Source: an uncultured Pseudomonadota bacterium | Lineage (GTDB): Bacteria > Pseudomonadota > Gammaproteobacteria > Steroidobacterales > Steroidobacteraceae | Direction of reading: 5' to 3' | Assembly (NCBI GenBank): GCA_903879335.1 | Contig: CAIRLC010000016.1 | Span: forward strand, 1-36,552 | Length of the DNA: 36,552 nt | Notes under the pieces: generated by a model | The model's input: the letters and a program-made list of their open reading frames with translations, nothing else | The model's database searches: none | Told to the model about the DNA's origin: nothing | Made by a program: the position numbers and the translations under genes | Shown here: positions 20,049 through 36,303 of the stretch, one piece after another | How positions within the stretch are numbered: the first letter of the stretch is position 1 | Layout of the letters: each line of letters starts with the position of its first letter

Positions 20049-20684
20049 TTACGGCCCAACGTGACGCCGTCGCCCGCGTGCCGGTGCCATGTCGACCGGT
20101 AAATTGGACGCAAACTCATTGAGCGCAGCGTCACCACGCCGCCAAAGCGTATAGCGCTGAGGGGCTCCATCCACCACGACGTCGATCGAATCCGGCGGGT
20201 TCAGTGCCAAGGCACGAATTTCACTCGGCTTGAATTCAACCCAGCTATCCCCGAGGCGTCCTGCGGGAGGCTCCAAGATGGGTTCGCCTGCACCGAGGTC
20301 ACGCGGCGTATGAGAACTGACTCGCCATTCCTTCGTGGCGGCGCCGGTCGTGATGAGGAGGCGCTCAGGGAGCGCAGGGGGCTTGGCGCCGATACGCGCC
20401 CGATCGATGGTGCTCCAGGACACCAAGGCTAGAAACAGTCGGTGCTGCCCCATGTTGTCCAGTTCAACGGCGCCCATGGAAACGAAGTCCCGAGCGTTCA
20501 CGGCCAACTCAGGCACGTCCCGGCCATAGATGAATGGCTCTGCGACCGTACGAACCGTCATCGCGGTCTGTGGGTCTAGGTACTCTTTAATCAGGCTGAT
20601 GTCGGGGCGTGGTGCCGTATGCGTGCACCCGCCGCAGACCAACAGTAGGGCGGCCAACGCGCCGCGGCGTATAGGATGTATCAA
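20049..20684 (-). CDS. Putative lipoprotein of unknown function
   Basis: A 211-residue protein whose N-terminus (MIHPIRRGALAALLLVCGGC) is a signal peptide ending in a lipobox-like CGGC, so it is probably lipid-anchored at Cys20. The remainder is a soluble beta-rich sequence without cysteines and without a recognised motif (EPFIYGRDVPELAVNARDFV, KEWRVSSHTP). It faces away from the giant cytochrome gene and shares the 260-bp intergenic region 20685-20944 with it, so the two could be co-regulated. Function is not assigned. Confidence 0.65.
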   Translation of the reverse strand: MIHPIRRGALAALLLVCGGCTHTAPRPDISLIKEYLDPQTAMTVRTVAEPFIYGRDVPELAVNARDFVSMGAVELDNMGQHRLFLALVSWSTIDRARIGAKPPALPERLLITTGAATKEWRVSSHTPRDLGAGEPILEPPAGRLGDSWVEFKPSEIRALALNPPDSIDVVVDGAPQRYTLWRRGDAALNEFASNLPVDMAPARGRRRHVGP

Positions 20685-20944: not shown

Positions 20945-23900
20945 ATGCATCGGATGGGCCCGCGTTCGATCGTGCGTATTCTGGGGATAGTGCTTGCCCT
21001 CCTGTTGGCGTCGATGACGGCTCAGGCGGCAACCAGTTCTTTTGACCATTACACGACCGGCTTTGAACTGGTGGGACTGCATCGGTCCGTGGCCTGCGAG
21101 AGCTGCCACGTCGGCGGCGTGTTTAAGGGCACCCCAAAAGACTGCTTTTCCTGCCATGCGGCGGGTTCGCGGCTCGGCGCAACGGCCAAGCCGACCAATC
21201 ACATTTTGTCGTCCAATGATTGCCAGACCTGCCACACGCCATACGGCTGGAAGCCGGTTTCAAAATTCAACCATATCAATGTTTTAGGCACTTGCAGCTC
21301 GTGCCATAACAACGTCCAGTCAGTAGGTAAGGGGCCGCGACACATTCCGACCACTGCGGAGTGCAGCACCTGCCATTTGGTGTCCTTGCCCTGGAGTGCG
21401 GCGCACTACGATCACGCGGGCATCCACGACAACTGCGCGCGCTGCCACGACAACATTCACGCCCCGGGCAAGCCACTCACGCACGTGCCGAGCGCGGAAG
21501 CTTGCGAAGTGTGTCACTCGCCCAGCAACTTCGTGACCTTTGCCGGCACGCAGATGAACCACGTCGGCATTACCAACAACTGCCAGTCCTGCCACGAGAC
21601 GGGAATGCAGTGGTACGGGCTGAATATGGTCGACCGCCCCACGTTGGCGGCTGACCCTTACCATCCGACGGCCACCTCGCCGGGCGGCGCCGACTGCGCG
21701 AATTGCCACGTTGGCTTCAACGTGGGCGACTTCGCCAAGTTGGTAAAGCCCGCCAATCACATTCCGGTCGCCCAAGTGCCGTGTGCGAACTGCCATGTCC
21801 TGACCGATATGAGCATCATGGCCTCGTTGTCGACGATCCACCGGAATACCCAGTCCACGACGACCAATTGCCAGCAATGCCACGGCTCAAATGCGGGCTA
21901 CTTCTCGCTGCCGGCGATTAATTTCCAGATCGTGGGCATTCCGGCCAACCACATGCCAACGACGTTGTCCTGTGAGGTCTGCCACGTTGGGGCAAGCTCC
22001 AGCATGGCCTCGTTGCCTGTGCCTGACGGCGCCAAATTCACCCACTCGCTGATGAATCATGCGGGGTCGACGACCTGCGCGGCCTGCCACGGACCAGGCG
22101 TGACCACCTTCGTGGGCGTCCAGAACATCATCGTGATGCCGGGAACGTCTCCGGCCGGCTCGCCGTCGGCACACATCCCGGTCAGCACCGACTGCGCCAG
22201 CTGTCACCAGGCTACAACGCCTAAGGGCCTGATTGCGCCGAACTCGAGTAGTTCGGTGCCGGGATCCTTGTTCCTCACGCCAGCGCCGACCACGAACCAG
22301 ATTCACAGCGGGGTGACCTCGGGTTGCCAGTCGTGCCACGAGGGTGGCTACGCATGGATGTCCATGTCGCAGTATCCCTTGGTCCCCGGTACGGTCACCG
22401 GGCTCAAGACGACGCAGTACATGGGCTTCCAGGCGCGTCCGGGCGCCGTGCCGAGTACGTACACCCTATTGGACGCCGGCCATCCAACGGAAGGCGACTG
22501 TGTCACGTGCCACGGATCGTCATTCCAGTATTTTTCGGCGTTGGCGTTGCCTAAGGGCCATATCCCGGTCGCCTCAACCGCGAATTGCACGGATTGCCAT
22601 AAAGGGGCTGACTTTTCAGTGATGCCGAGCATCGCTGACATCCATGCCTATGCGCCAAGCAAGACCACGAATTGCACGCAGTGTCACTCGGGAACCAGCA
22701 CGAAGGCGGGTCCGTTTGTTGGCGGTGGCGGGACCTTATCGATCGTAGGAACACCGATCGGGCACATTCCGACCACGCAGTCTTGCGAGGTATGCCACGC
22801 GGGATCGGGTTCCAGCTTCACGAGCCTCCCGGTTCAAAACGGTGCGAAGTTCAGTAACTCGGCGATGAACCACGCCGGCATCACGACCTGTAATGAGTGC
22901 CATGGCCGTCAGGTGACGGGCACGACCTTCTATGGCATCGCGAAAATCATCGCGTTGCCTGCGGCGACGCCGGCGGGGGCGTCATCCGCGCATATCCCCG
23001 TGGCCGGTGAGTGCGCGAGCTGCCATCAGGCCTCCATGCCTGCCGGCCTGATCGCCGCGAATAGCAACAAGTCACTGCCAGGGTCGCTCTTTATGACGCC
23101 TGCCCCGACCACGGGCCAGATTCACAGCGGGATCACCGGAAACTGTCAGAGTTGCCACGAAGGCGGCTACGCGTGGATGTCGATGGGCCAATACCCCATC
23201 AGTCCAACCACCTTTATCAGCGGCTCGCATTACACCGGCTTCCAGACCCGCCCGGGTGCGTCTGCCGGGACCTTTGTCGTGAAGGACACGGCGCACCCCG
23301 CCAGCGGGGATTGCTTGGCCTGTCACGGCACGAACTTCGACTACTTCGACAGTGTCGTGAAGCCGTCGAACCATATCCCTTATTTGGCTTCGGCGACCTG
23401 TGCCAACTGCCATAAAGGCAGCGACTACTCCGTGCTGCCGGCGCTCATTGATATCCATACCTACGCACCGAGCAAGACCACCAATTGCGCGCAGTGCCAT
23501 GGCGCCAACGCGGATTCGTTCTCGATACCGTCGGCAAACTTCAAGATTGTTGGGCTGCCATCCAATCACCTGCCGACCACGCAAGCCTGCGAGGTCTGCC
23601 ACGTGGGCGCCGGCTCGAGCGTCGCGGTAACACCGGTCCCGAATGGGGCGAAATTCTCCGGCTCGAAGATGAGCCATGCCGGTGTCACGACCTGCGTGGA
23701 ATGCCACGGTCCCAATATCACTGGATTTGCGGGGATCACTAAAATTGTGGTCATGCCATCGACGACACCGGCTGGTGCGTCCACGGCGCATATCCCGTCC
23801 GGAACGAATTGTGAGCAGTGCCACCAAGGCTCATTGCCGGCAGGCCTCATTGCGGCGAATGCGACCACGCTTGCGCCAGGGTCTTTGTTCCTGAATCCAG

Positions 23901-26900
23901 CACCGACCACCAACCAGATTCATAGCGGTGTGACGGGTAACTGCTCGAGCTGTCATGAAAGCGGTTATGCCTGGATGTCCATGGGTAAGTACCCGCTGAA
24001 TCCAGCCACGATGTCGACGAATCCAGCCGCGCAGTACATGGGCTTCCAGACTCGACCCAGTGCGGTCGGCGGCAAATTCATGATTCAGGATGCGAAGCAC
24101 CCGGCGACCGGCGAGTGTGTCAACTGCCACAGCACCAATTTTGCTTATTTCGCAGCACCGGAAAAGCCGGCGAACCATATCCCAGTGGCCTCGAGTTCGA
24201 GTTGCACGAGCTGCCATAAGGACCCGAGCGGTGACTTCTCGGTCATGCCGACGATGTTGGATATCCACACCTACGCGCCGAGCCAGACGACCAATTGCGC
24301 GCAATGCCACGGGTCGACTGCGGCGTCCTATGCGATTCCGTCGATTAACTTCAAGGTGACCGGTCTTCCGTCGAACCATATTCCGGTGACGCAGTCCTGC
24401 GAGGTGTGCCATGTCGGTTCCGGCTCCAGCGTTGCCGTGACGCCGGTGCCCAATGGCGCCTTGTTCTCCGGCTCGAAGATGAATCACGCGGGGATCGCCA
24501 CCTGCGCGGGTTGCCATGGACCGACGATTTCGTCGACCTCGTTTGTCGGCATTTCAAAGATCGTGGTCATGCCGCCGGTGACGCCGGCCGGTAGCCCGTC
24601 GGCGCATATTGCGTCGGGAACGAACTGTGAGCAGTGCCATCTGTCGACGATGCCGTCAGGCATGATCGCCGCTAACGCAACGCTATCGGCGCCAGGTTCT
24701 CTGTTCTTAACGCCAGCGCCTAACACGACGCAGATCCACACCGGCGTCACGTCGAACTGCCAGAGCTGCCACGAAGGCGGCTATGCGTGGATGTCGATGA
24801 GCCAATACCCGATTATCCCGTCGACCTACAGCGCCAATGCGCAGTACACGGGTTTCCAGGCGCGTCCGAGCGCAAGTGGTGGAACCTACCAGATTAAAGA
24901 TGCTGCCCATCCGACGACGGGCGACTGCGTCAGCTGTCACGGCACCAACTTCAACTATTTTGCGAGCCAGGTGAAGCCGTCAAACCACATTCCGGTAGCG
25001 GCGACGTCGGCGTGCGGTGACTGCCATAAGGTGGCGGATTACTCGGTGACGCCGGCGCTCGTCGATATCCATACTTATGCGCCGAGCCAGACCACGAACT
25101 GCACGCAATGCCATGCGACGCCCGGTACCACGGTTGGTCCGTTTGCGGGTCCTCCCGGCTTCAAGATCATGGCGGCGCCATCGAACCACATCCCAACCAC
25201 GCAATCGTGCGAGGTGTGCCACGTCGGCGCGGGTTCCAGCATTGCGGCGACCCCGGTGCCGAACGGCGCCTTGTTCGCCGGTTCGAAGATGAATCATGCG
25301 GGCATCAGCACCTGTGTGTCGTGCCACGGGCCCACGATCAGCGGCAGCTCTTTCGTCGGCATTTCGAAGATCGTTGTGATGCCGTCGACTGCTCCGGCCG
25401 GCAGTGCGAACGCCCATATCCCGAGCGGCACGAACTGTGAGCAGTGCCATCTGTCGACGATGCCGTCAGGCATGATCGCCGCTAATGCAACGCTATCGGC
25501 GCCAGGTTCTCTGTTCTTAACGCCAGCGCCTAACACGACGCAGATCCACACGGGCGTGACGACGAACTGCCAGAGCTGCCACGAAGGCGGCTATGCCTGG
25601 ATGTCGATGTCGCAGTATCCAATCACGCCGGCCACGCTGTCGGCCAACAGCTCGACGCAGTACATGGGTTTCCAGACCCGACCCAATGCGACGGGTGGTA
25701 CCTACCAGATCAAGGATGCGGCCCATCCGGCATCGGGTGATTGCGTCAGTTGTCACGGTACCAGCTTTGCGTACTTCTCTGGGACGGCGCTGCCAGCCAA
25801 TCACATTCCGATCAATCAGGGCGCGGCCTGCTCCACCTGCCACACGACGGCGGGTAATTACGCGGTCTACACGACGAACCTGACGCAGTTGCATAGCGCC
25901 GTGTCGACCGCCTGCAGCACCTGTCATGCGGACGGGAAGGGTCCATTTGCCGGCGCTACGGGTTTTGCGATCGTGCAAATGTCCACCCGTGGCTTGCACA
26001 TTCCCATCACCAATGCGGGCGTACCGGTGGAGTGTTCTGGGTGCCATAAAGTGGTCACCACGTTCTCCGGCACGATCATGAGTCACGGGGCGATCGGCGA
26101 TGTGGGCAGCTCGGCGGCTGGCAATGCCTGTGACGCCTGCCATGAGTACAATTTCCGGAACAAGTTCTACGGCTTGTCGATCTGGCAGCGAGATAAAGCG
26201 AACCACTACATCTGTGGTGCCGCAGGCACCCCAACCGCACCGAATACCCAGGTGTGCAGTGGTGGTGGCTCGGATTGCACGACCGGCTGTCACCAACACA
26301 GTATTTCGAGCCGTTACAAGGCAGCGCCACGCCCGCGTCCCACACCCACCCCGACCGCACCCGCGGCGAGTGTGCGCGGCGGTCATGGGTTGGGCCTCTC
26401 GGCCACCACCGTCAGCGGTGAGCGGCCGGAGCGTGATGCTGCCCGCATCGGCGCGCTCACCGGCTTGCCGATGGCTGCGCTGCGTGAGAACGGGCGCTTT
26501 GACCATAGCCAGGCGATTGGTCGCAACTGCGTCAGTTGCCATGATGGCGCAACCGCCGCAGGTAAAGCCGCGACCCACCCGAGAACCACCAATACCTGTG
26601 CCGATTGCCACGGCACGATTGCTTGGACGCCAGTGATCCGAATTGATCACGCCGATGTTCTGGGCGCTTGTGTCTCGTGCCACGACGGGCACAAGGCGAC
26701 GGGCAAGCCCTCGACCCACTTGCCGAGTGGTAACGGCTGCGACAGCTGTCATACGACGAGCGCCTGGAAACCCGCGGCGTTTGACCACGCGGGCGTGCTG
26801 CAAGGGACCTGCATCACCTGCCATAACGGTGTGTCGGCACAGGGTAAATCCTCGAACCATCCGCTCACGGTCGCGTCCTGCGACACCTGTCACTACGAAC

Positions 26901-27022
26901 TCGGATGGGTGCCGGTGAAGCCGCAGGCGGTCGCACCGATCATGCGCACCAAGCCGGTCGTGCCAAGGATTCCGGTCTTGCCACCGCGTAACCGGCTGTT
27001 GTCTGGAGCGCCCAGTCGGTGA
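20945..27022 (+). CDS. Giant exported multiheme cytochrome c (54 CXXCH + one CX3CH)
   Basis: A 2025-residue protein with a signal peptide (MHRMGPRSIVRILGIVLALLLASMTAQA) and no lipobox. I count 54 CXXCH c-heme sites plus CTTGCH at residue 1778, a possible CX3CH site. Architecture: residues 51-217 hold eight hemes in short-spaced units; 251-1599 hold five seven-heme modules (first Cys at 251, 519, 790, 1058, 1328), each with a CEVCHxGxGSS site and ending CxSCHExGYAWMSM; from 1600 a partial sixth module holds five hemes. A Pro-rich linker near 1790-1805 leads to a six-heme tail (1862-1983) of FDH-type units. It presumably carries electrons over a long distance outside the inner membrane. The ATG at 20945 has AAGAGA upstream and gives a clean signal peptide. 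It overlaps the barrel gene by 4 bp. Confidence 0.93.
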   Translation: MHRMGPRSIVRILGIVLALLLASMTAQAATSSFDHYTTGFELVGLHRSVACESCHVGGVFKGTPKDCFSCHAAGSRLGATAKPTNHILSSNDCQTCHTPYGWKPVSKFNHINVLGTCSSCHNNVQSVGKGPRHIPTTAECSTCHLVSLPWSAAHYDHAGIHDNCARCHDNIHAPGKPLTHVPSAEACEVCHSPSNFVTFAGTQMNHVGITNNCQSCHETGMQWYGLNMVDRPTLAADPYHPTATSPGGADCANCHVGFNVGDFAKLVKPANHIPVAQVPCANCHVLTDMSIMASLSTIHRNTQSTTTNCQQCHGSNAGYFSLPAINFQIVGIPANHMPTTLSCEVCHVGASSSMASLPVPDGAKFTHSLMNHAGSTTCAACHGPGVTTFVGVQNIIVMPGTSPAGSPSAHIPVSTDCASCHQATTPKGLIAPNSSSSVPGSLFLTPAPTTNQIHSGVTSGCQSCHEGGYAWMSMSQYPLVPGTVTGLKTTQYMGFQARPGAVPSTYTLLDAGHPTEGDCVTCHGSSFQYFSALALPKGHIPVASTANCTDCHKGADFSVMPSIADIHAYAPSKTTNCTQCHSGTSTKAGPFVGGGGTLSIVGTPIGHIPTTQSCEVCHAGSGSSFTSLPVQNGAKFSNSAMNHAGITTCNECHGRQVTGTTFYGIAKIIALPAATPAGASSAHIPVAGECASCHQASMPAGLIAANSNKSLPGSLFMTPAPTTGQIHSGITGNCQSCHEGGYAWMSMGQYPISPTTFISGSHYTGFQTRPGASAGTFVVKDTAHPASGDCLACHGTNFDYFDSVVKPSNHIPYLASATCANCHKGSDYSVLPALIDIHTYAPSKTTNCAQCHGANADSFSIPSANFKIVGLPSNHLPTTQACEVCHVGAGSSVAVTPVPNGAKFSGSKMSHAGVTTCVECHGPNITGFAGITKIVVMPSTTPAGASTAHIPSGTNCEQCHQGSLPAGLIAANATTLAPGSLFLNPAPTTNQIHSGVTGNCSSCHESGYAWMSMGKYPLNPATMSTNPAAQYMGFQTRPSAVGGKFMIQDAKHPATGECVNCHSTNFAYFAAPEKPANHIPVASSSSCTSCHKDPSGDFSVMPTMLDIHTYAPSQTTNCAQCHGSTAASYAIPSINFKVTGLPSNHIPVTQSCEVCHVGSGSSVAVTPVPNGALFSGSKMNHAGIATCAGCHGPTISSTSFVGISKIVVMPPVTPAGSPSAHIASGTNCEQCHLSTMPSGMIAANATLSAPGSLFLTPAPNTTQIHTGVTSNCQSCHEGGYAWMSMSQYPIIPSTYSANAQYTGFQARPSASGGTYQIKDAAHPTTGDCVSCHGTNFNYFASQVKPSNHIPVAATSACGDCHKVADYSVTPALVDIHTYAPSQTTNCTQCHATPGTTVGPFAGPPGFKIMAAPSNHIPTTQSCEVCHVGAGSSIAATPVPNGALFAGSKMNHAGISTCVSCHGPTISGSSFVGISKIVVMPSTAPAGSANAHIPSGTNCEQCHLSTMPSGMIAANATLSAPGSLFLTPAPNTTQIHTGVTTNCQSCHEGGYAWMSMSQYPITPATLSANSSTQYMGFQTRPNATGGTYQIKDAAHPASGDCVSCHGTSFAYFSGTALPANHIPINQGAACSTCHTTAGNYAVYTTNLTQLHSAVSTACSTCHADGKGPFAGATGFAIVQMSTRGLHIPITNAGVPVECSGCHKVVTTFSGTIMSHGAIGDVGSSAAGNACDACHEYNFRNKFYGLSIWQRDKANHYICGAAGTPTAPNTQVCSGGGSDCTTGCHQHSISSRYKAAPRPRPTPTPTAPAASVRGGHGLGLSATTVSGERPERDAARIGALTGLPMAALRENGRFDHSQAIGRNCVSCHDGATAAGKAATHPRTTNTCADCHGTIAWTPVIRIDHADVLGACVSCHDGHKATGKPSTHLPSGNGCDSCHTTSAWKPAAFDHAGVLQGTCITCHNGVSAQGKSSNHPLTVASCDTCHYELGWVPVKPQAVAPIMRTKPVVPRIPVLPPRNRLLSGAPSR
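24621..24741 (+). repeat. Near-identical 121-bp segment, copy in module 4
   Basis: Matches 25431-25551 base for base except one C/T difference (24676 versus 25486), offset 810 bp. Other stretches of these modules differ at many silent positions, so this patch suggests recent gene conversion or unequal crossing-over. Confidence 0.9.
25431..25551 (+). repeat. Near-identical 121-bp segment, copy in module 5
   Basis: Partner of 24621-24741 with a single base difference. It encodes the stretch from CEQCHLSTMPSG to APNTTQIHT in module 5. Confidence 0.9.
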
Positions 27023-29187
27023 GCGCTCCAGTGAGGAAACTGCCGTCACGCCATTTTTCGGCGCTGACGTTCGCCATCGCAGCGGCCTTGGCCAGCCCCG
27101 CCAGCCGAGCGGCTGATCGAACCTTGGACCAGATTTCTGCCGAGGCAGGATCGGTGGTGGTTCAGTTCAATTGCCCGATGAGCTTTGTCTCCAACTTCCC
27201 GCTGCGCACCGGCGATGAGTTGCGTATCGAGTTGCAGCCGCTTCCGGGTTGTGCGCCGATGACCGGTTTCGGTGAAAGCTTGCCGGTCGCTGCGGATAAT
27301 GCGGCGGGACTTTTGGATATCCGCCTGGAGCCGTCGCTCGGCTCGCGTCGGTCCTTGACGCTGCATTTCGCGCGGAATGTCGAATTTTTGATTCGTCCGA
27401 AACCTGGACTGACCGGCATTGAGGTGGTCCTGTCGCGGCGTGCCGGACGCGTGACGGTTGAGGCCACGAACGACGCCCCACCGAAGCCATCCCGCGAGGT
27501 GGCTCGTGCGCTCCCGGCGTCGGCGGAGGACATGGAAAAGCTGCTCGCCGACGCGCGTACGGCCATGCAGGACCGCGACTACGACGGGGCGATTCGGATC
27601 TATACCAAGATCTTGGAGTCGCCGGAAAGCGCAGCTCGCCCACAAGCGCAAGAATTCTTGGGGCTTGCACGCGAGCGCAAGGGCCAGCTTGCGCAAGCCA
27701 AGAAAGAGTACGAAGAGTATTTGCATCGCTATCCGGAGGGTGCGGACGCGGATGCGGTTCAGCAGCGCTTAGCGGCTCTGGTGACCTTGGACGGCGCCAC
27801 TCGACCCACCAAGGGCGCACTTGATGCCTCTCGGTGGCAGATTGATGGCGCATTGGCGCAGGAGTATCGCCACGATAAGAACGACGTTCTGTCCAACGGC
27901 GTGACCGCCAATGGCGTTGGGCAGACCGCCTTGGATTCAGAGGCTGACCTGCAGATCCGCCATCGCGGCGATCGCTATGACTTCAAGAGTCGCGTGTTCG
28001 TCGGTTATGTCCGAGATATGTTGAGCGGCGCGGGCGGCTCACCGAACATTATTCGGTTGCCCCAGGCTTTTGTCGAGATTGACGATCATCGCTCCAATTG
28101 GGTCGCGCGCCTCGGCCGTCAGTCCCAGACGAATGGCGGCGTGTACGGCAGCTATGACGGCGCTTACGCCAGTTGGCAGCCGCGCACCGGATTCCGCGTG
28201 TCTGCGGCCGCCGGCGCGACGCTGCAAAGTTATGATGCGAGCGTGCAGCACGACCGTACCTTTGCGAATCTTGCTGTCGAGTGGTTGGGCGTCATTCCTG
28301 GTCTTGATCTCACCGGCTTTGCCTTCGAGCAGAAAGCCGGCGGGTATCTCGATGCGCGCCAACTTGGCGTGGAGAGTCGGTATTACCGCGATGGTAAGTC
28401 CCTGATCGGACAGATCGACTACGACGTCTATTTCAAAGAACTGAACTCAGCAACCTTGTTGGGTAGTTTTTCATTGCCGAACCGTTGGGTCATCACCGGC
28501 GTGCTTGACCATCGCCATTCACCCTTTCTCGGCGTGTTTAACGCATTGATCGGTCAGCCGACCACGTCGATTGGGTCGTTGATCGAAACCACTGGATTGC
28601 AGGGTGCGAAGCAACTGGCTGTCGATCGGACCGCGATCGCCGATATGGGCACGATCGGCGTCCAGCATCCCTTAACTGAACAATTGCAGTGGGGCGCTGA
28701 TCTTTCTTTCAGTCGGGTCGGCGGTACCGTCGCGTCTGGCGGCGTGCCGGCCACGCCGGCTTCCGGTAACGCGATCGCGGTGTCCACGCAACTCCTCGGT
28801 GGGAGCTGGCTGGTGGATGGTGACGTCGACACGGTCGGCGTGGGCTACACCACGCGCCAAGGCACCCGATCGATTTCCGTGTTTTCAACCGCGCGATATC
28901 CGATCACCGATTCAATTCGTATCGGCCCACGGGTACAAGTGAGCCACACCAGCGGCAACGATCCGCGCACAGGGACGAGCTCCGGTTGGTCCGCCAGCCC
29001 ATCACTGCTATTGGATTGGCGCTTTAGACGGGGCGTTGTGCAGTTTGAATCCGGCTATGAGCAGGCCGCACTGAATGCCAGTCTGTCGCCTGGTGTGCCG
29101 CTCGATCCGAACTTGCCGTCCGCGAACCTACTGACCCAGAAGACGAAACGCTTCTGGTTTGGTCTCGGGTATACCGTCAGCTTCTAA
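27019..29187 (+). CDS. Outer-membrane beta-barrel protein with N-terminal domain and TPR region
   Basis: A 722-residue exported protein, GTG start overlapping the cytochrome stop (GTGA). A signal peptide ends near residue 31 (SPASRA). Residues about 34-150 form a beta-rich periplasmic-type domain with two cysteines (FNCPM, PGCAP). About 165-255 is a TPR pair (MQDRDYDGAIRIYTKILE, GQLAQAKKEYEEYLHRYPEGA). From about 265 to the end are alternating amphipathic strands typical of a porin-like barrel, finishing with FWFGLGYTVSF, whose terminal Phe is the usual outer-membrane assembly signal. It has no CXXCH and no MtrB-type CXXC. Coupling to the giant cytochrome suggests a porin-like partner that exports, anchors or sheathes it, analogous in role but not obviously homologous to MtrB/PioB. 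Confidence 0.82.
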   Translation: MSAPVRKLPSRHFSALTFAIAAALASPASRAADRTLDQISAEAGSVVVQFNCPMSFVSNFPLRTGDELRIELQPLPGCAPMTGFGESLPVAADNAAGLLDIRLEPSLGSRRSLTLHFARNVEFLIRPKPGLTGIEVVLSRRAGRVTVEATNDAPPKPSREVARALPASAEDMEKLLADARTAMQDRDYDGAIRIYTKILESPESAARPQAQEFLGLARERKGQLAQAKKEYEEYLHRYPEGADADAVQQRLAALVTLDGATRPTKGALDASRWQIDGALAQEYRHDKNDVLSNGVTANGVGQTALDSEADLQIRHRGDRYDFKSRVFVGYVRDMLSGAGGSPNIIRLPQAFVEIDDHRSNWVARLGRQSQTNGGVYGSYDGAYASWQPRTGFRVSAAAGATLQSYDASVQHDRTFANLAVEWLGVIPGLDLTGFAFEQKAGGYLDARQLGVESRYYRDGKSLIGQIDYDVYFKELNSATLLGSFSLPNRWVITGVLDHRHSPFLGVFNALIGQPTTSIGSLIETTGLQGAKQLAVDRTAIADMGTIGVQHPLTEQLQWGADLSFSRVGGTVASGGVPATPASGNAIAVSTQLLGGSWLVDGDVDTVGVGYTTRQGTRSISVFSTARYPITDSIRIGPRVQVSHTSGNDPRTGTSSGWSASPSLLLDWRFRRGVVQFESGYEQAALNASLSPGVPLDPNLPSANLLTQKTKRFWFGLGYTVSF

Positions 29188-29204
29188 TGGGAACTGAAGA
29201 TCTC

Positions 29205-29231
29205 TGAGGCGCCCACGTTTTGGGCGCCTCA
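29205..29231. terminator. Bidirectional terminator between the two cytochrome operons
   Basis: TGAGGCGCCCA-CGTTT-TGGGCGCCTCA is a perfect 11-bp stem with a 5-nt loop, placed between convergent genes ending at 29187 and 29242. U-runs are short on both sides, so efficiency may be moderate, but position and stem strength make a two-way terminator likely. Confidence 0.75.
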
Positions 29232-29241
29232 GCCTTCGCTC

Positions 29242-30804
29242 TTATCGCCTGACGCCGGCACCTTTCCAACTGATGCTGGTATGGCAGCGGGCGCAGTCTC
29301 GGCCAAAGCCGCCATGATGCACGTCATCGCGTGCATGGCAGTCGCCGCAATCCTTCGGCAACTTCACTTCATCCGGCGGCTTCACGTGACAGGTCTCGCA
29401 CGTGATCTTGGCATGCGCGCCCTCGAGCGCAAAATGGGTGGCCTTGCCATGGTCAAACTGCCAGAACTTCCACCCATTCGGGTTGTGGCATGTGGCGCAG
29501 GCCTTGCCTAAGTTGCCTTTGTGAACATCGTCACTCTTGTGGCAACTGATGCAATCCCGAGCGGTGTTGCGATAGGCGCGCGTGGCGTGGCATTCCTCGC
29601 AGCCGACACTCGCGTGTAGGCCCACCAGCGGGAAGCGCGTCATATCGTGATCGAATCGCACCTTCTCGCGCCATCCGGACTCGACATGGCATGAGCCGCA
29701 CTGCGTGCCCATGGAGCCGTGATGAACATCGTCGGCCTTGTGACAGCCCGCGCAGTCGGTCGGCAGCTTGCCGCTGGTGATCGGCGTCGTATGGCAGGCC
29801 TGGCAGTCGACCTTTGCATGCTTGCCCTTCAGCGCCCAGTGACCTTGCTTCTCGTGGTCATACCGAGCGTCTTTCCACTTCTCTTCGCTATGGCACTGTT
29901 TGCAATCATCGCCAAACCGCCCGCCATGACGGTCGTTCGCTGCATGGCAGCCGGCGCATTGATCAGGGATCTTGGCTTTAGTATCCCCCGAACGATGGCA
30001 GGCATCGCAGGCTACCTTCGCATGTGCGCCGTTCAGGGCGAAGTGGGCGATCTTCTCGTGATCGTAGAATGCGGTTTTCCACTTGTCGGTGTTGTGGCAC
30101 GAGCCGCATTGGGGGCCGCGCCCACCTTTGTGCGAGTCGTCGCGCGCATGACAGGCAACGCACTCCATCGGCGTGTTCTTATACGAGGGATCTCGATGGC
30201 AATCCGAGCATCCCGCGCGCGCATGCGCATCTTTCAAGGGGAAATGCGTTTTCGAGTGATCGAAATCGGTCTTCTTGAAACTGACTTGGTTATGGCACTG
30301 GGCGCAGTCCTTGCCCAATTTGCCTTGGTGAACGTCTTGCTTTTCATGGCAACCAAAGCATGTGGTCGCGGCTTCGCGGAATTTTTTCCCGGTCACGTGG
30401 CAGCTGGCGCAGGCCACGGTCTGGTGCCGGCCTTCTAGCTTATAGCCGCTGACAGCATGCTCAAATGACTCGCGGTCAAACCGCACGATGTCGGCCGCAC
30501 GACCCTTATGCTCGTTATGGCAAGCGATGCACTCGGTGCCCGCCTTGACCGAGTTGCCGTGAAAACCACGCTTCGTGCGCAGATCGCTCGCGATATCTTT
30601 GTGACAGTCTAGGCACAGTGTGGACTGACGTTCGCGGTGCGAACGATCGTGGCACTTGACGCACTCGGTCTCGTATTTGGCGTGAGCTTTCGACACCTCG
30701 CCCGGCATCAGGATCTTTTCGATCGCCGTGGCGCCGGCGACGGACGCGCAGGCAACGCACCAGATTGCCAGCATCAATTGAGCGAAAAGACGAAGCGAGC
30801 GCAT
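29242..30804 (-). CDS. 21-heme exported cytochrome c
   Basis: A 520-residue protein with a signal peptide (MRSLRLFAQLMLAIWCVACASVAGATA) and 21 CXXCH sites by my count. The first three hemes form an N-terminal unit (CVKCH, CLDCH, CIACHNEHKGR). Six tandem three-heme units of about 66 residues follow, each with the pattern FDHxKxxFxLxGxHAKVxCxxCH, LPxDCxxCHxxDDVHxGxxGxxCxxCHxxxxWK. This is an elongated cytochrome c7/c3-like chain. It is probably periplasmic, carrying electrons from the inner-membrane partner encoded just upstream to the outer membrane. The start at 30804 is chosen for GAGGG upstream and a clean signal peptide. It is the last gene of the operon and lies 8 bp after the b-type membrane protein stop. 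Confidence 0.92.
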   Translation of the reverse strand: MRSLRLFAQLMLAIWCVACASVAGATAIEKILMPGEVSKAHAKYETECVKCHDRSHRERQSTLCLDCHKDIASDLRTKRGFHGNSVKAGTECIACHNEHKGRAADIVRFDRESFEHAVSGYKLEGRHQTVACASCHVTGKKFREAATTCFGCHEKQDVHQGKLGKDCAQCHNQVSFKKTDFDHSKTHFPLKDAHARAGCSDCHRDPSYKNTPMECVACHARDDSHKGGRGPQCGSCHNTDKWKTAFYDHEKIAHFALNGAHAKVACDACHRSGDTKAKIPDQCAGCHAANDRHGGRFGDDCKQCHSEEKWKDARYDHEKQGHWALKGKHAKVDCQACHTTPITSGKLPTDCAGCHKADDVHHGSMGTQCGSCHVESGWREKVRFDHDMTRFPLVGLHASVGCEECHATRAYRNTARDCISCHKSDDVHKGNLGKACATCHNPNGWKFWQFDHGKATHFALEGAHAKITCETCHVKPPDEVKLPKDCGDCHARDDVHHGGFGRDCARCHTSISWKGAGVRR

Positions 30805-30812
30805 GTCTGCCC

Positions 30813-31679
30813 TCAGTACAAGTTGACTGCGATGACGTGCGCGATGCCGGCGACAAGCAGCATGCCGAACAAGGGCAGGTGCAGGACGTGCCACAAGCCA
30901 AACAGGCGCTCGCAACTTTGGAACTCTGCGACTCGACGGGCAGCCGCCAGACGTGCCTCAGCATATCGAAGCGCTGCAGACTTGAGTTTTTGCTTCTGAT
31001 CCGCAATGGTCTTGGAGCTCTGGGCCGCTTTGTTCAGGGAGCTCTGAATGAAGAAACGAATGCGGATTTTCGCGCTCATCCAAAGTATCAGAGCCGAGGC
31101 GGCTTTTGGGACGGCAGGCAGGCTGAAAAAAATGGATTTTTCGGCAGAATCTAAGCGTTCAGCAAAGCCGGGCAATAGTCGCCCTGCGCCCGTGCCTTCT
31201 AATCGAATTTTGCTGGCTTGATAATGGATCTCATCCAGATTGGCGCGGCTGCCGTATAGGCCAAAGTGGATGCGGCTGTACAGATAGCGCCCCACCAGTC
31301 CGCTGCCTGACACGATGATCATTGACCACAGCGCCACATTCGAATTGGTGGCGCCCATCCGATAGGTGCAGTGGTACAAGATGGCCAAGGGCCCGGCGAC
31401 ACCCAAAATCATGTGAATTTGGAACCAGATTCGCGCAGAACCCAGAAAGGCAAAGGCGCGCACGCGCTTGCGCAGCGGATAGATCAGCAGCAACACCATT
31501 AGTGAGCCACCAATGATGCCGAGCCAGTAGCCGAGTCCTGCGCGCGGTGTGATGTAGTCGCGCAGCGGCAGCATCCAACCCGTGACGAGGATCACTGTGG
31601 TCAGTAGCATCCCCAGCGTCGTGGAGCTGATGCCTTTGGACTGTGCGGGCTCAAATGTGTTTATCGCTTCTGCGCTCAT
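30813..31679 (-). CDS. Inner-membrane cytochrome-b-like protein
   Basis: A 288-residue membrane protein with about five hydrophobic helices and a long basic cytoplasmic or periplasmic middle region (residues about 145-255, helical, Lys/Arg/Ala-rich). Candidate heme-b ligands occur in helices: IHMILGVAGPLAILYHCTY (two His 14 residues apart) and LWHVLHLPLFGMLLVAGIAHVIAVNLY (His near both ends). This pattern fits a di-heme b-type quinol-oxidising or ferric-reductase-like protein, but no named family is certain. It lies between the CcmI-like gene (4-bp overlap, ATGA) and the 21-heme cytochrome (8-bp gap), so it likely hands electrons from the quinone pool to that cytochrome. Confidence 0.7.
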   Translation of the reverse strand: MSAEAINTFEPAQSKGISSTTLGMLLTTVILVTGWMLPLRDYITPRAGLGYWLGIIGGSLMVLLLIYPLRKRVRAFAFLGSARIWFQIHMILGVAGPLAILYHCTYRMGATNSNVALWSMIIVSGSGLVGRYLYSRIHFGLYGSRANLDEIHYQASKIRLEGTGAGRLLPGFAERLDSAEKSIFFSLPAVPKAASALILWMSAKIRIRFFIQSSLNKAAQSSKTIADQKQKLKSAALRYAEARLAAARRVAEFQSCERLFGLWHVLHLPLFGMLLVAGIAHVIAVNLY

Positions 31680-32389
31680 CGTTTCGCTCCCGCTGATCCG
31701 GCCAGGCGTTCAGACTCATCGAGGTTGGATTGAACGATTTTCGCATCGCTCGAATCCGTCGGTAGAACCCTCAGCAGTCGACGCCATAAGTCGGCCGCTG
31801 CTGCAAAGTGTTTGGACTCAAGTTCGGCGCTCGCTTTCAGCCAGAGCGCTTTCGGATGTGTTGGATCCAGCTCTAAAGCACGGTCGATGGCCGCTTGGCC
31901 TGCGCTCAGGTTGCCCCCGGCAGCAGCGGCTTGCGCATCGCCCAAGTCGGCCCAACCATCCGGATCAAACGGCGCCGCTTGCGTGACTTCGCGGAAGCGA
32001 GCAGTCGCTTCCACGTAGTTTTTCGCGCGGCGAGCGTCTTCGGCTTTGGCGCGCAATTCTGCGACCCGCCCACCGCCAGTGCTCGCGGCTGGAGAGGCTA
32101 CGGTTGCCGGTTCGTTGAGCGCGGCTGCGCTGCTGGTCGCGCCGGTCGGCTCGATCGCCGTAGCCTTAATCGATGGCGTTGCGAGCAGCCCAACCGCCAC
32201 ATAGGTGCTCGCCACGATGAGCGGCGTTGCCACGATGAGGCCCAGTGCGAGTCGAGCATATTCGCGGCGGATCGCCCAGTAACTGGCGAACAGCGTGGCT
32301 GGCAGGGCGAGGATTGCGAGAGGCAGCTGCAGGCTCAAGTCCGTGTTCCGTATGGTCGAGAGTTGCCCCGAATCGGGGTTGAGTGACAA
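31676..32389 (-). CDS. CcmI-like TPR membrane protein
   Basis: A 237-residue protein with two N-terminal hydrophobic helices (LPLAILALPATLFASYWAI and LALGLIVATPLIVASTYVAVGLL), an Ala/Thr-rich linker, and C-terminal TPRs (residues about 110-225). The TPRs read AKNYVEATARFREVTQAAPFDPDGWADLGDA, AIDRALELDPTHPKALWLKA and AAADLWRRLLRVLPTDSSDAK. Two helices plus these repeats and the LLxxLPxDSxDA ending resemble CcmI/CycH, which holds apocytochrome c for heme ligation. A dedicated copy here would serve the 75-heme cluster. The only available start is a TTG at 32389 without a strong binding site, so the N-terminus is uncertain. It is first in the operon with the b-type protein and the 21-heme cytochrome. 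Confidence 0.7.
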   Translation of the reverse strand: MSLNPDSGQLSTIRNTDLSLQLPLAILALPATLFASYWAIRREYARLALGLIVATPLIVASTYVAVGLLATPSIKATAIEPTGATSSAAALNEPATVASPAASTGGGRVAELRAKAEDARRAKNYVEATARFREVTQAAPFDPDGWADLGDAQAAAAGGNLSAGQAAIDRALELDPTHPKALWLKASAELESKHFAAAADLWRRLLRVLPTDSSDAKIVQSNLDESERLAGSAGAKR

Positions 32390-32582
32390 TTCGGACCGAG
32401 GATATCAGCCCAAAGCGAGCCTCTGACAAGCTCCAGCGTCTCTGTGTCGCGACATGTGAAGTGGATGCGGAACTGGGTCACGTTTTGGCACTCTCGCCCT
32501 AGTCACTCAATCAGGATTAAGCCAACTTGCGCGTCGGAACGCTTCAACCCGACTGACATTTTGACGGCAAGCTAAAGAACCC

Positions 32583-33881
32583 ATGGAATACCTGATCTAC
32601 TCAGCGCCCCTCGCGATTTACGTCATCTGGTACTTCATGAGCCGATCGCGACTGAAGCGCCAGAGCTTCATAGCGCAGAAAGAGGCTTTGGAAGCCGGAC
32701 TCACTGAGCCGGCTTCTTTGCATCCCTTGATTGATTACACGAAATGCATCGGTTGCGGATCCTGCGTCAATGCCTGTCCTGAACAGGACCACCACACGGT
32801 GCTCGGCATTATCGATGGCAAGGCGGACCTCGTGGGGCCAACGAACTGCATTGGTCACGGGGCTTGTGCGCCGGCCTGCCCGGTTGACGCGATCACCTTG
32901 GTGTTCGGTACGGCGCGACGCGGCGTGGACTTGCCGCGGGTAAGCCCGTGGTTTGAGACCAACGTGCCTGGTGTTTTTGTCGCTGGCGAACTTGGCGGCA
33001 TGGGTCTCATTCGTAACGCGGTGGAACAAGGTCGCCAGGCGATGGCGGAAATCATTGCCCGCCGACCACGAGGCGAGGGCGATGAGTTGGATGTGTTGAT
33101 CGTTGGCGCCGGGCCTGCCGGTTTCTCAGCCTCTTTAGCGGCCCTAGAAGCAAAACTGCGCTTCATAACGGTTGAGCAGGAGTCGCTCGGTGGCTGCGTA
33201 TTCCAATACCCACGCGGCAAGATCGTGATGACCCAGCCGGCGGTTTTGCCGATCATTGGCAAGATCAAGGTGTCGTTGACGACTAAAGAAGAACTGCTCC
33301 AGGTTTGGCTTGATGCGCAAAAGCAGGCGGGCCTTGAAATCAACACCAATGAGCGGGTTGAGAGCGTCACCCCGGTGGGTGATGGTTTTATCGTGAAAAC
33401 GGCCAAAGGCGAATACCGGGCGCGTTCGGTCTTGCTATCCGTGGGTCGGCGCGGTACCCCACGCAAGCTTGGCGTCAAGGGTGAAGAGCAGTCGAAAGTC
33501 GTATACCGCCTGATCGATCCCGAGCAATACGTGGGTCAGCGAGTGATCGTGGTTGGCGGTGGTGATAGCGCCTTGGAGGCGGCCGCCAGTTTGGCGGAGG
33601 CCGGTGCGAGCACCACCTTATCCTATCGAGGCGATGCCTTCGGTCGCGCCAAACAGCGCAATCGGGAACGCGTCAATGCGGCGGTTGCCGCTGGCTCGTT
33701 GACGCTCCTTCTGAAGTCTCAAATCGAAGAAATCGGACCCGACAGTGTGCGCATGCGGCACGACGGCAACACCATGGACATTCCTAACGACGCCGTTATC
33801 GTAAATGCCGGCGGCGTGTTGCCCACGGACTTCCTGAAGGGGATTGGTATCACCGTCGAAACCAAGTGGGGCACCGCATGA
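32583..33881 (+). CDS. Membrane-anchored 4Fe-4S / FAD-NAD(P) oxidoreductase
   Basis: A 432-residue protein. Residues 1-20 are an N-terminal membrane helix (YLIYSAPLAIYVIWYFM). Residues 50-105 are a two-cluster ferredoxin: CIGCGSCVNACPE, then CIGHGACAPACPVDA, where the second Cys of the usual pattern is His. A stretch PGVFVAGELGGMGLIRNAVEQG follows, resembling the C-terminal FAD segment of thioredoxin-reductase-type enzymes but placed before the main flavin domain. Then come DVLIVGAGPAGFSAS (FAD) and VIVVGGGDSALEAAASLAEAG (NAD(P)). No CxxC redox pair is seen in the flavoprotein part. It probably moves electrons between NAD(P)H, flavin, Fe-S and the membrane or cytochromes. It is divergent from the CcmI-like operon; the following gene overlaps by 4 bp. 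Confidence 0.83.
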   Translation: MEYLIYSAPLAIYVIWYFMSRSRLKRQSFIAQKEALEAGLTEPASLHPLIDYTKCIGCGSCVNACPEQDHHTVLGIIDGKADLVGPTNCIGHGACAPACPVDAITLVFGTARRGVDLPRVSPWFETNVPGVFVAGELGGMGLIRNAVEQGRQAMAEIIARRPRGEGDELDVLIVGAGPAGFSASLAALEAKLRFITVEQESLGGCVFQYPRGKIVMTQPAVLPIIGKIKVSLTTKEELLQVWLDAQKQAGLEINTNERVESVTPVGDGFIVKTAKGEYRARSVLLSVGRRGTPRKLGVKGEEQSKVVYRLIDPEQYVGQRVIVVGGGDSALEAAASLAEAGASTTLSYRGDAFGRAKQRNRERVNAAVAAGSLTLLLKSQIEEIGPDSVRMRHDGNTMDIPNDAVIVNAGGVLPTDFLKGIGITVETKWGTA

Positions 33882-35794
33882 GTGCAGCGTTATGGTTGGC
33901 CGCCACATTGACATTGGCCGCTCCATCGGCGAGCCCGGAGCTGGAGCCCGCCCGCGACGCGTTGCGCCGGCATGACTACGCGCGTAGCGCCGAGCTGCTG
34001 TCCGCCCTCGTTGCAAACGGTAACGCCGAGGCGGCTTATCAATTAGCCCTGATGTATTTGCCGCGTAGCAATGATATCGGCTTGCCGCCTGACGCCGCGC
34101 GCGCGTGTGGCCTCTTGGTTCAAGCCGCAAACCAAGGCTGGGCAAAAGCGTCGTATACCTTGGCGTCGCAGGTGGAATCGGGCGTTTGCAAGGATACAGG
34201 CCGAAGCGCTGAACAGTGGGCAGCGTCTGCTGAAAGCGGAGGCTTTAAGTCGCACGCAGCAACCGTCGAGCCGACCACAGCGGCCGTCGTCGCTGAGCCC
34301 GCAACGCTCTTACGCCGCGCAGCCCATGACGGTGATTTGGCCAAACTTGAATCCTTACTCGCTAAAGTCTCTGCGGATTCCGCGTCAGTCGATCGTCGCG
34401 TGGCACTACATGACGCGGCCGAGTTCGATCAGCCGGAGGCCGCTCGGGTGCTGTTGGCGCACGGCGCATCGGTTGATCTGCGTGATGTCGCCGGCGACAC
34501 GCCGCTATTAATTGCGGCTCGACGCGGTGCCGCGCAAGTGGTCCGGCGCTTGCTGGCGGCAGGCGCTGATCCCAGCGCCGTCGATAGTCGGGGCGGTAGC
34601 GCCCTGATGCTGGCGGCGGCCGCCGGATCAAAAGACGCGGTAGCGGCGTTACTCGCGCAAGGCGCGGATGCCAATGCGCGCAATCCCCAAGGCCTCGCGG
34701 CTTTTGATCTTGCTGAGCGTGCTCCTAAAACGGCCGATTCTGCCGCCATTCTGAGCGCCTTAAAGGCGGCCGGCGCAACAGGGGTTGCCAGAGCGATCAT
34801 TCGGGAAGTTCGCCAGGACGATCGCTTTGCCGGATGGTCGCCATTGCTGATTGCTAGCGAGCGCGGCGACGTCGCCGGGGTAAAAGCTGCGCTGGCGGCT
34901 GGCGCGGCCGCCAATTCCATTGAGCCGGGCGGAACACCCGCGTTAGCCATCGCAGCCCGCAACGGGCACGTTGCCGTCGTACAAGCACTCCTTGCGGCTG
35001 GGGCCCGAGTCGATGCCAAAACGAACGATGGCGACACCGCGTTGGGTGTCGCGGTACGGCGCCGTCAAATCGGCACGGTGGACGCATTATTGGCGGCTCA
35101 TGCGGACTGCAACATGCGTCAAGCCCGCGGCGTCCTGCCGTTGGGGCTCGCCGCCGAGCTTGGGGTTAAAGAGCTTGTGCAGCCCCTGATTTCAGCGGGG
35201 GCCAAGGTTGGAGCCGCAGATGCGCAAGGCCGCACGGCCTTGATGCAAGCGGCCGAGCATGACGACACAGCAATCGTTCAGGTGCTGCTCAGCGCCGGAT
35301 CGGATGCCAAGCAAAGGGATACGGCGGGGCGTACCGCCCTTGCGGTAGCCGCCGCCGCTGGCGCGAATGGCTCTGCGTCGGTGCTGGTCTCGGCCGGTGG
35401 TCTTGATCTCGCCGACGCTGACGGACTAACCCCGCTTGCCCTGGCCGCCCAGCGCGGCGCAAACCCACTGATCGTGCAACTCCTAAAGGCGGGGGCTTCG
35501 CGCGAGGTGCGCTCAAAATCAGGAAATACACCCCTGATCGTCGCCGCAGGCGCTGGCCGCGTCGACGCCATCCAAGCACTGGTTGGCGCTGGTGCAAAGT
35601 TGGAAACGCGAAACGATTTGGGTAACACGCCGCTGCTCGCGGCCGTGGCGGCGCGGCAATTCGAGGCGGCTAAACTATTGATTTCGATGGGTTCTGATCT
35701 GAGGATCCGAAACTCGGCGGCGCAAACCGCGGCCGATATTGCCGGTCAGGCTGGCGATCCAAAGCTCGTCGCGCTGTTCGCCGTCAAGCGCTGA
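33878..35794 (+). CDS. Exported Sel1-like/ankyrin-repeat protein
   Basis: A 638-residue protein with a short hydrophobic N-terminus (MSAALWLAATLTLAAPSAS), a likely signal peptide. Residues about 25-125 resemble Sel1 repeats (AEAAYQLALMYLPRSNDIGLPPDAARACGLLVQAANQGWAKASYTLAS). From about 140 to the end are some twelve to thirteen ankyrin repeats of about 33 residues (GDTPLLIAARRGAAQVVRRLLAAGADPSAVDSRG and similar). Repeats near 270-310 are irregular. It is a scaffold for protein binding, probably in the periplasm. The ATG at 33878 overlaps the oxidoreductase stop (ATGA). It could organise the electron-transfer proteins, but no partner can be named. It is the last protein gene before the tRNA operon. 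Confidence 0.85.
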   Translation: MSAALWLAATLTLAAPSASPELEPARDALRRHDYARSAELLSALVANGNAEAAYQLALMYLPRSNDIGLPPDAARACGLLVQAANQGWAKASYTLASQVESGVCKDTGRSAEQWAASAESGGFKSHAATVEPTTAAVVAEPATLLRRAAHDGDLAKLESLLAKVSADSASVDRRVALHDAAEFDQPEAARVLLAHGASVDLRDVAGDTPLLIAARRGAAQVVRRLLAAGADPSAVDSRGGSALMLAAAAGSKDAVAALLAQGADANARNPQGLAAFDLAERAPKTADSAAILSALKAAGATGVARAIIREVRQDDRFAGWSPLLIASERGDVAGVKAALAAGAAANSIEPGGTPALAIAARNGHVAVVQALLAAGARVDAKTNDGDTALGVAVRRRQIGTVDALLAAHADCNMRQARGVLPLGLAAELGVKELVQPLISAGAKVGAADAQGRTALMQAAEHDDTAIVQVLLSAGSDAKQRDTAGRTALAVAAAAGANGSASVLVSAGGLDLADADGLTPLALAAQRGANPLIVQLLKAGASREVRSKSGNTPLIVAAGAGRVDAIQALVGAGAKLETRNDLGNTPLLAAVAARQFEAAKLLISMGSDLRIRNSAAQTAADIAGQAGDPKLVALFAVKR

Positions 35795-35896: not shown

Positions 35897-35982
<86 letters not shown>

Positions 35983-36070
35983 CGTCACCGGTGTTCCGGT
36001 GGCGGGCGGCGGAGAGACAAAGCGGTTGACGCAGCGGCTTTCGGCTCAGGCGGATCGTCGGATTGGTCGG

Positions 36071-36144
<74 letters not shown>

Positions 36145-36191
36145 AACCGGTGATCGGTCGATTGGACTTTGGTGAATGAGGTTTTGATTCG

Positions 36192-36210
36192 AAAGGGTTT
36201 TTTGCCCTTT
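36192..36210 (+). other. Small hairpin in the tRNA-Gly/tRNA-Thr spacer
   Basis: AAAGGG pairs with CCCTTT across a T-rich loop. It lies inside the tRNA transcript, so it is more likely a processing or pausing structure than a terminator. Confidence 0.3.
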
Positions 36211-36227
36211 TGAGCAGAGTAGATCGG

Positions 36228-36303
<76 letters not shown>

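Follow-up and report, generated by a model that had tools for sequence, protein, structure and literature searches.

What kind of electron conduit is built from two cytochromes that together carry 75 canonical heme-binding sites is the question raised by a 36,552-nucleotide stretch of DNA (the window) from an uncultured Steroidobacteraceae bacterium. The window is one entire contig of a host genome of 3.14 Mb that consists of 46 contigs and is 96.8% complete. The locus is of a known kind, the porin-cytochrome conduit PCC3, and what is newly proposed here is the partnership of this conduit with a flavoprotein encoded beside it. Taken as a whole, the locus probably encodes a PCC3-type conduit with a flavoprotein port. 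The argument concerns five genes (signal peptides in the window proteins were judged by eye):

20945..27022, + strand: giant outer cytochrome of 2025 amino acids with 54 CXXCH motifs, the "extracellular" multiheme cytochrome of PCC3, recognized by motif count and head spacing
27019..29187, + strand: predicted outer-membrane beta-barrel protein of 722 amino acids with an N-terminal beta domain, a tetratricopeptide repeat (TPR) domain and a C-terminal barrel (AlphaFold2, Foldseek)
29242..30804, - strand: 21-heme, putatively periplasmic cytochrome of 520 amino acids (21 CXXCH motifs, conserved spacing pattern)
30813..31679, - strand: inner-membrane diheme b-type protein of 288 amino acids, the inner-membrane protein (IMP) of PCC3 (alignment signature, model helices)
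32583..33881, + strand: flavin adenine dinucleotide (FAD)/NAD(P) oxidoreductase that has a hydrophobic N-terminal segment and a pair of 4Fe-4S motifs, the proposed cytoplasmic electron port (profiles, co-occurrence)

A script counted 54 CXXCH motifs in the forward open reading frame at 20945-27022 (2025 amino acids) and 21 in the reverse one at 29242-30804 (520 amino acids), and at most one in each of the other window reading frames of at least 80 codons. Residue-shuffled controls (1000 per cytochrome) contained a mean of 0.4 motifs and a maximum of 3. An earlier note, made from the letters of this DNA, had claimed 75 such sites on a 54-heme and a 21-heme cytochrome, and the count agrees with it. 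The gene order also matches its description of two convergent operons with divergent 4Fe-4S/FAD and ankyrin genes: the giant cytochrome gene overlaps the barrel gene, this pair is convergent to a reverse-strand operon comprising a TPR gene (31676-32389) and the b-type and 21-heme genes, and the flavoprotein gene is divergent from that operon and overlaps an ankyrin gene (33866-35794). The barrel that the note had assigned to the outer membrane was predicted as such by AlphaFold2 (pLDDT 84.6; 23 listed strands in residues 273-721), Pfam being blind to the barrel part, and a Foldseek search of the model retrieved porins, ushers, and AlgE (E from 2e-10; TM-scores by query of at most 0.34 among the best 50). 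A SPOR domain was present in 30 of 40 barrel-family members scanned, the window protein having no match, and the family profile matched the TPRs of CpoB; together, these likenesses suggest that the barrel family is anchored to the cell wall.

The assignment to PCC3 rests on the IMP signature, the heme numbers, and the gene set, with the named PCC3 proteins (Slit_0867-0870 and Slit_1446-1449) standing outside the set of sequences compared. The PCC3 IMP is described by He et al. 2017 (PMC5566968) as a five-helix protein of ~300 amino acids with SGXXG on transmembrane helix 4 and WX3HX13H on helices 3 and 5. In the 288-residue window protein and its relatives (alignments of 31 and 69 rows), W85-x3-H89-x13-H103, S126-G-x2-G130, and W263-x3-H267-x13-H281 were invariant, and the model placed the histidine pairs on helices 82-104 and 229-287 and SGxxG on helix 111-137; this signature is common to PCC4 too, and a Pfam profile search of the b protein gave zero matches. 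The periplasmic cytochrome of PCC3 has a median of 21 hemes, the number of motifs in the window protein (24.8 amino acids per heme; location putative). The outer cytochrome of PCC3 has a median of 34 hemes and up to 85, at 22-39 amino acids per heme (PMC5566968), a range that includes the window giant with 54 motifs at 37.5 amino acids per heme (surface location putative), and the porin is represented by the predicted barrel. The published order of IMP, periplasmic cytochrome, extracellular cytochrome, and porin is largely conserved (PMC5566968); the same four genes lie side by side in the window, but the outer cytochrome and barrel are inverted relative to the rest. The outer wire also differs from published PCC3 (PMC5566968; PMC10734462) in that it consists mainly of MtrC-like seven-heme repeats, although repeats and variable heme numbers in PCC3 cytochromes are described by He et al. 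2017 (PMC5566968). The flavoprotein, ankyrin protein, and a small protein of the window lie outside the four-gene set described in these papers.

A pattern-limited scan of 84,980 species' genomes yielded 75 loci, which together with retrieved neighborhoods gave 128 distinct b-protein loci; genes were counted only over loci with enough flank. A 21-heme-type gene accompanied the b protein in 116 of 119 loci and an outer cytochrome in 98 of 101, and a barrel gene occurred in 70 of the 72 loci with 9 kb visible downstream, one of the two misses (L161) having a barrel farther off. Within the order, b-protein matches at E 0.001, some of them weak, were found in 43 of 147 genomes. The co-occurrence of these genes in other genomes, a check named in the earlier note, is borne out. 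Its electron conduit also stands as a predicted porin and multiheme system with a b-type inner-membrane step, but not as a type beyond recognition, because its features match PCC3, which has been in print since 2017.

MtrCAB, MtoAB, and PioAB share with the window the working principle of a barrel with multiheme cytochromes crossing the outer membrane, and the repeats of the giant match the MtrC/MtrF domain II/IV model. The window differs from them in its 21 and 54 hemes, against 10 and 10, and in its b-type inner-membrane protein, whose counterpart in Mtr-type systems is CymA. MtrCAB/MtoAB are defined by a decaheme MtrA and an MtrB-type barrel; no MtrB-type Pfam match to the window barrel was obtained, MtrB was absent among the best 50 Foldseek matches of its model, and TIGR03508 matched the giant partially and below cut-off (101.6 against 192.2 bits) and the 21-heme protein not at all. 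The earlier note took the giant wire to stand in place of a decaheme MtrA/MtrC pair; a periplasmic MtrA-like role would instead fall to the 21-heme protein. PCC4 and porin-less IMP-cytochrome clusters (PMC5566968) have the same histidine pairs in an IMP beside other redox proteins, but PCC4 is described with three periplasmic cytochromes and no outer cytochrome, and the other IMP clusters mostly without a porin.

The flavoprotein has a hydrophobic segment at its N-terminus and two 4Fe-4S motifs, of which the second (CxGHGxC) includes an invariant histidine, alongside FAD and NAD(P) domains, the flavin domain being related to thioredoxin reductases; mean column identity was 57% among 36 sequences, the window copy included. 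In a sample of 369 genomes of the class (thresholds E 1e-20 for the b protein and E 1e-60 for the flavoprotein), the b protein was present in 42 genomes, which fall in 33 numbered families by hand count, and the flavoprotein in 44; both occurred in 41, the b protein alone in one, and the flavoprotein alone in three. Of these three, G322 (72% complete) has it beside a barrel and an outer cytochrome; in G243, on a contig of 3.5 kb, it adjoins cytochrome fragments; and G284 shows a weak partial match with no cytochromes in view. Of the 106 loci in which 3.5 kb upstream of the b gene was visible, 96 contained the flavoprotein gene. The flavoprotein was present on a contig other than that of the b protein in G147 and G414 (one genus) and in G137; G231 and G330, where contig ends appear to cut the cluster, were left out of this argument. 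Two genomes from the window's own genus have neither the b protein nor the flavoprotein.

The association extends beyond the class. In a phylum-wide sample, the flavoprotein was found in eight of 398 genomes, six of them with strong matches (two of these, G000 and G231, being known already). In three of the four new strong matches, one of which (G641) belongs to another class, the b protein and cytochromes adjoin the flavoprotein, and G857 has a barrel and a 10-motif cytochrome near it, with no b protein in the stretch examined. A search of 72,556 plasmid records retrieved one b-protein match (27.5% identity, limit E 1e-5) and one flavoprotein match (44.3%, limit E 1e-50), both on pEMTOL02 of Emticicia oligotrophica DSM 17448 (Bacteroidota; L209, 10037-22621). 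Here, consecutive genes on the same strand encode ccsA, the b protein, the flavoprotein, a 23-motif cytochrome, a 40-motif cytochrome, and a 538-residue protein that gave no match to the barrel profile. A related trio of FAD/NAD protein, b-like protein, and 10-motif cytochrome was found in L062 (4562-9852) and L205 (9857-13262 onwards); in L062, a single frame joins the FAD/NAD protein to cyclic-nucleotide and 4Fe-4S domains, and the cytochrome contains an FHA domain. As judged from gene content, the flavoprotein is a near-constant partner of PCC3 beyond the published four genes. This partnership was not found in print in a search that covered texts outside supplements and figures. The main text of He et al. 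2017 (PMC5566968) does not mention ankyrin, ferredoxin, pyridine nucleotide, FAD, tetratricopeptide, or lipoprotein, though additional redox proteins are mentioned there for PCC4 and for other clusters; the ferredoxin mentioned in Hoover et al. 2023 (PMC10734462) concerns other genes.

The flavoprotein is proposed to serve as a cytoplasmic port for NAD(P)H or ferredoxin. Electrons, in either direction, would pass between NAD(P)H or ferredoxin and the FAD and 4Fe-4S clusters of a membrane-anchored cytoplasmic flavoprotein, between these clusters and two b hemes in the inner membrane, and from the b hemes along the 21-heme wire across the periplasm. The wire would hand over to the conserved five-heme head of the giant, which may be docked in the barrel, and thence to a presumably extracellular outer wire, which in the window is extended by seven-heme repeats of MtrC-like type. 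Such an arrangement, leading from a cytoplasmic flavin/iron-sulfur protein over two b hemes to c-heme wires that pass through a barrel, would resemble NADPH oxidases and ferric reductases (NOX/FRE), in which a cytoplasmic flavin feeds two b hemes held by HX13H pairs. No homology is claimed, as the b protein has no Pfam match, and the flavin domain in the window, unlike that of NOX/FRE, is of thioredoxin-reductase type and part of a separate protein. The published alternative, in which the quinone pool is the electron partner of the b protein and the flavoprotein merely lies nearby or acts separately, is rather unlikely. He et al. (PMC5566968) considered the b protein possibly quinone-active by analogy with the bc1 complex and hydrogenase cytochrome b, but the same paper noted that HX13H pairs are common to NAD(P)H oxidases and ferric reductases. 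The retention of the flavoprotein in 41 of 42 b-protein genomes of the class, even on separate contigs, and, in Emticicia, the location of its gene between those for the b protein and the cytochromes also argue against mere neighborhood. The NAD(P)H end of the path, as suggested in the earlier note, is strengthened by this co-occurrence, its quinol end being still compatible.

Several observations weigh against the flavoprotein-port reading. Two genomes of one genus, G121 and G113 (98% and 100% complete), possess the cluster with five- and nine-heme outer cytochromes and no flavoprotein match genome-wide, which favors the quinone alternative and indicates that the flavoprotein is not an absolute requirement. 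Next to the b protein of G335 lies no more than a fragment of the flavoprotein, and in G179 the flavoprotein is interrupted by a stop. The Fisher value of 1e-49 for co-occurrence is uncorrected for kinship or shared operons. A Foldseek search of the b-protein model against the PDB gave 0 matches at E 0.001 or better, which is neutral either way. Exchange of electrons between the b protein and quinone, as in the published model, appears compatible with all data here. Published expression data show lower levels of both Sideroxydans ES-1 PCC3 clusters on Fe(II), and a 2025 paper called PCC3 "functionally unverified."

The published expression data do not fix the direction of the conduit. In the ES-1 proteomes, the outer cytochrome Slit_1448 had a value of 0 in all eight columns, and the other PCC3 proteins had values of 0 to 63; in CL21, PCC3 was expressed above the mean and did not track iron oxidation, except for the inner-membrane gene of one copy. 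RuBisCO was not detected in the 96.8% complete host genome, which harbors two heme-copper oxidases and a cytochrome assembly family. Given the undetected RuBisCO and the two oxidases, iron-driven autotrophy is a poorer fit than the export of surplus electrons, or than an uptake that yields energy but does not serve carbon fixation.

The flavoprotein might otherwise provide reducing power for the making of cytochromes, keeping CXXCH cysteines or heme reduced, and have no part in respiration. Proteins with up to 133 motifs require reduced cysteines, the flavin domain is related to thioredoxin reductases, and the cluster contains a weakly CcmI-like TPR gene, as that of Emticicia contains ccsA. 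However, an FAD/4Fe-4S protein also stands beside a b-like protein with only a 10-motif cytochrome in L062, and the CxxC motif characteristic of thioredoxin reductases was not spotted by eye in the flavin domain, so a role in assembly is improbable. A separate observation concerns five of the ten loci with no flavoprotein in view (L043, L049, L052, L054, and L061), which have minimal five- or nine-heme outer cytochromes. The flavoprotein is encoded elsewhere in three of these genomes and not in G121 and G113, and the loci possibly form a simpler subtype.

The two wires differ in how their lengths vary. The periplasmic wire consists of three hemes followed by three-heme modules of ~68 residues, and the spacings of the commonest patterns are constant within a few residues. 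Among 115 copies not at a locus edge, 21 motifs were found in 106, 24 in six, and 18 in three; a 27-motif copy at a locus edge and a 30-motif copy in a distant locus were excluded by the filters. Hoover et al. 2023 (PMC10734462) reported periplasmic PCC3 cytochromes with 21, 24, and 27 hemes in Gallionellaceae. The 21-heme protein matched MtrC/MtrF domain II/IV weakly, below cut-off, and no solved structure at E 0.001, at which the giant had a single weak match. The head of the giant (residues 33-175) was 35% identical to residues 384-515 of the 21-heme protein (E 9e-19), a likeness which suggests that the two wires may share an origin.

The giant is built of the following parts, all on the + strand:

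21095..21595, + strand: N-terminal eight hemes, a conserved five-heme head and three hemes at 23-26-residue spacing (spacing, relatives)
21635..26236, + strand: five seven-heme repeats of ~270 amino acids each and a partial sixth with five hemes (repeat comparison)
26276..26293, + strand: lone non-canonical CX3CH after the repeats, like the cap motif of relatives (motif scan)
26528..26893, + strand: C-terminal six hemes at 23/24-residue spacing behind a proline-rich linker (spacing)

Among 119 distinct outer-cytochrome frames starting with a 16-residue gap, 77, including the window giant, shared the head spacing 16-26-24-23; nearly all other listed frames had near variants of it, and two of the 119 were fragments of the other cytochrome. 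Stand-alone five-heme relatives matched the N-terminal part of the giant (21095..21595) at 36-49% identity. After the head, hemes in the outer wires are mostly 23-24 residues apart, and a C-terminal cap follows with a spacing of ~31-37, then 22, and then a CX3-6CH motif; among frames that lie away from locus edges and have more than nine motifs, 69 of 82 show this spacing. The CX3CH, CX4CH, or CX6CH at the end of the cap (e.g., in L040, L082, and L127, and at 26276-26293 in the window) is possibly a further heme site. In the window giant, most of the 23/24 wire is replaced by the five seven-heme repeats, which are mutually 55-76% identical (33-46% for the partial sixth). Two stretches of about one repeat each matched Pfam MtrC/MtrF domain II/IV above cut-off, and two plain 23/24-spaced wires that were scanned gave no match to it.

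Outer copies away from edges and with the barrel visible contained 5 to 69 motifs, nine being the bare five-heme head, and the number was odd in 76 of 87. This pattern may depend on lineage and on counting, and the copies are also mutually related; the outer proteins of Gallionellaceae include even heme numbers where CX3CH and CX4CH are also counted (Hoover et al. 2023, PMC10734462). The longest outer wire is an unbroken 4086-codon frame containing 133 CXXCH motifs (L199/L200, genome G357, contig C17, 42976-55233), in a PCC3-type cluster that also encodes the b protein, a 24-heme cytochrome, a 1361-codon barrel-profile frame, the flavoprotein, and the ankyrin protein. The highest number recorded is 113 according to Leu et al. 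2020 (PMC7082337), and He et al. 2017 (PMC5566968) gave a maximum of 85; a search of newer literature found no number above 113, which is no proof of absence. The length pattern and the repeat-built, inverted form were not seen in the PCC3 literature compared, no dedicated search having been made. Two side observations concern gene number: L050, L051, L053, and L134 have a head-only outer cytochrome and a separate 26-heme gene nearby, possibly a split outer wire, and L182 has three distinct outer-type cytochromes (39, 33, and 23 motifs, the 39 cut by the locus edge) beside one 21-heme gene.

A near-constant 21 hemes in one protein against 5-133 in the other fits one wire that spans the periplasm and one that is free outside. 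It also speaks against the idea that both multiheme proteins stay in the periplasm as an electron store while the barrel serves another purpose, as does the barrel gene in 70 of the 72 loci with room for it; this capacitor is very improbable, although charge storage in PCC3 was also discussed by Hoover et al. 2023 (PMC10734462). For the conduit with a flavoprotein port, a wider generalization can be offered tentatively, at somewhat less than even confidence. In most lineages, PCC3 may be a five-component machine, in which a NOX-like port links the NAD(P)H/ferredoxin pool, and not only quinone, to the outside. Its periplasmic wire, built in three-heme steps, would be kept at 21, serving as a periplasmic ruler, and its outer wire, with a conserved head and usually a cap, would grow mainly in two-heme steps with no evident limit (5-133).

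Three further genes accompany the conduit:

31676..32389, - strand: TPR protein with hydrophobic N-terminal segments, weakly CcmI-like, a possible assembly factor (profile search)
33866..35794, + strand: ankyrin-repeat protein with an apparent export signal (judged by eye), accessory (profile search)
20049..20684, - strand: small protein with no Pfam or NCBIfam match, encoded behind the barrel in many relatives from the order (neighborhood comparison)

The earlier reading of the first protein as CcmI-like has weak backing, the TPR_CcmH_CycH profile scoring 23.9 bits where the cut-off is 42. Where 6.5 kb upstream of the b gene was visible, 29 of 57 loci contained the ankyrin gene; with 5 kb, 57 of 98 did. 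PCC3 with cytochrome and ankyrin was not found in the literature searched. A defense or effector role for the ankyrin protein was rejected: NCBIfam matches were far below cut-off, and those from PADLOC, run with no cut-offs, were to ankyrin-bearing models, that is, repeat cross-hits. The small gene lies outside the coordinates given in the earlier note (20945-35794). Of 68 loci with 9.9 kb in view downstream, 33 contained it; in the class sample, only two of 27 did. In the window, it keeps the strand of the b protein, as it does behind the barrel in relatives, so the giant and barrel look inverted in place. An outer cytochrome opposed to the b-protein operon was found in only two of 115 other loci (L053 and L188), and the inverted order may be an assembly error. 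A phase-variable inversion of the pair was rejected, since among the best 25 by length of 119 inverted-repeat pairs, the longest (74 nucleotides, 70%) joins homologous cytochrome modules inside the two convergent genes and not the segment borders. Genes for tRNA-Tyr, tRNA-Gly, and tRNA-Thr lie at 35897-36303, right behind the ankyrin gene, a possible insertion site of the cluster. The contig edge (1-641) carries rRNA genes, namely the 3' end of a 23S gene and a 5S gene; the listed reading frame at 577-1749, which by eye looks ferrochelatase-like, runs into the 5S gene and must therefore start farther inward than listed.

PCC3 has been predicted since 2017 and was still regarded as functionally unverified in 2025, and its role in iron oxidation is left unsettled by expression data. 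A near-constant cytoplasmic flavoprotein would give this family a concrete, testable point of electron entry or exit, as well as a candidate marker gene, and the cross-phylum plasmid operon in a strain with a DSM number offers material for such tests. The length regularities of the two wires furthermore give a genome-based reason for assigning one protein to the span across the periplasm and the other to the outside.

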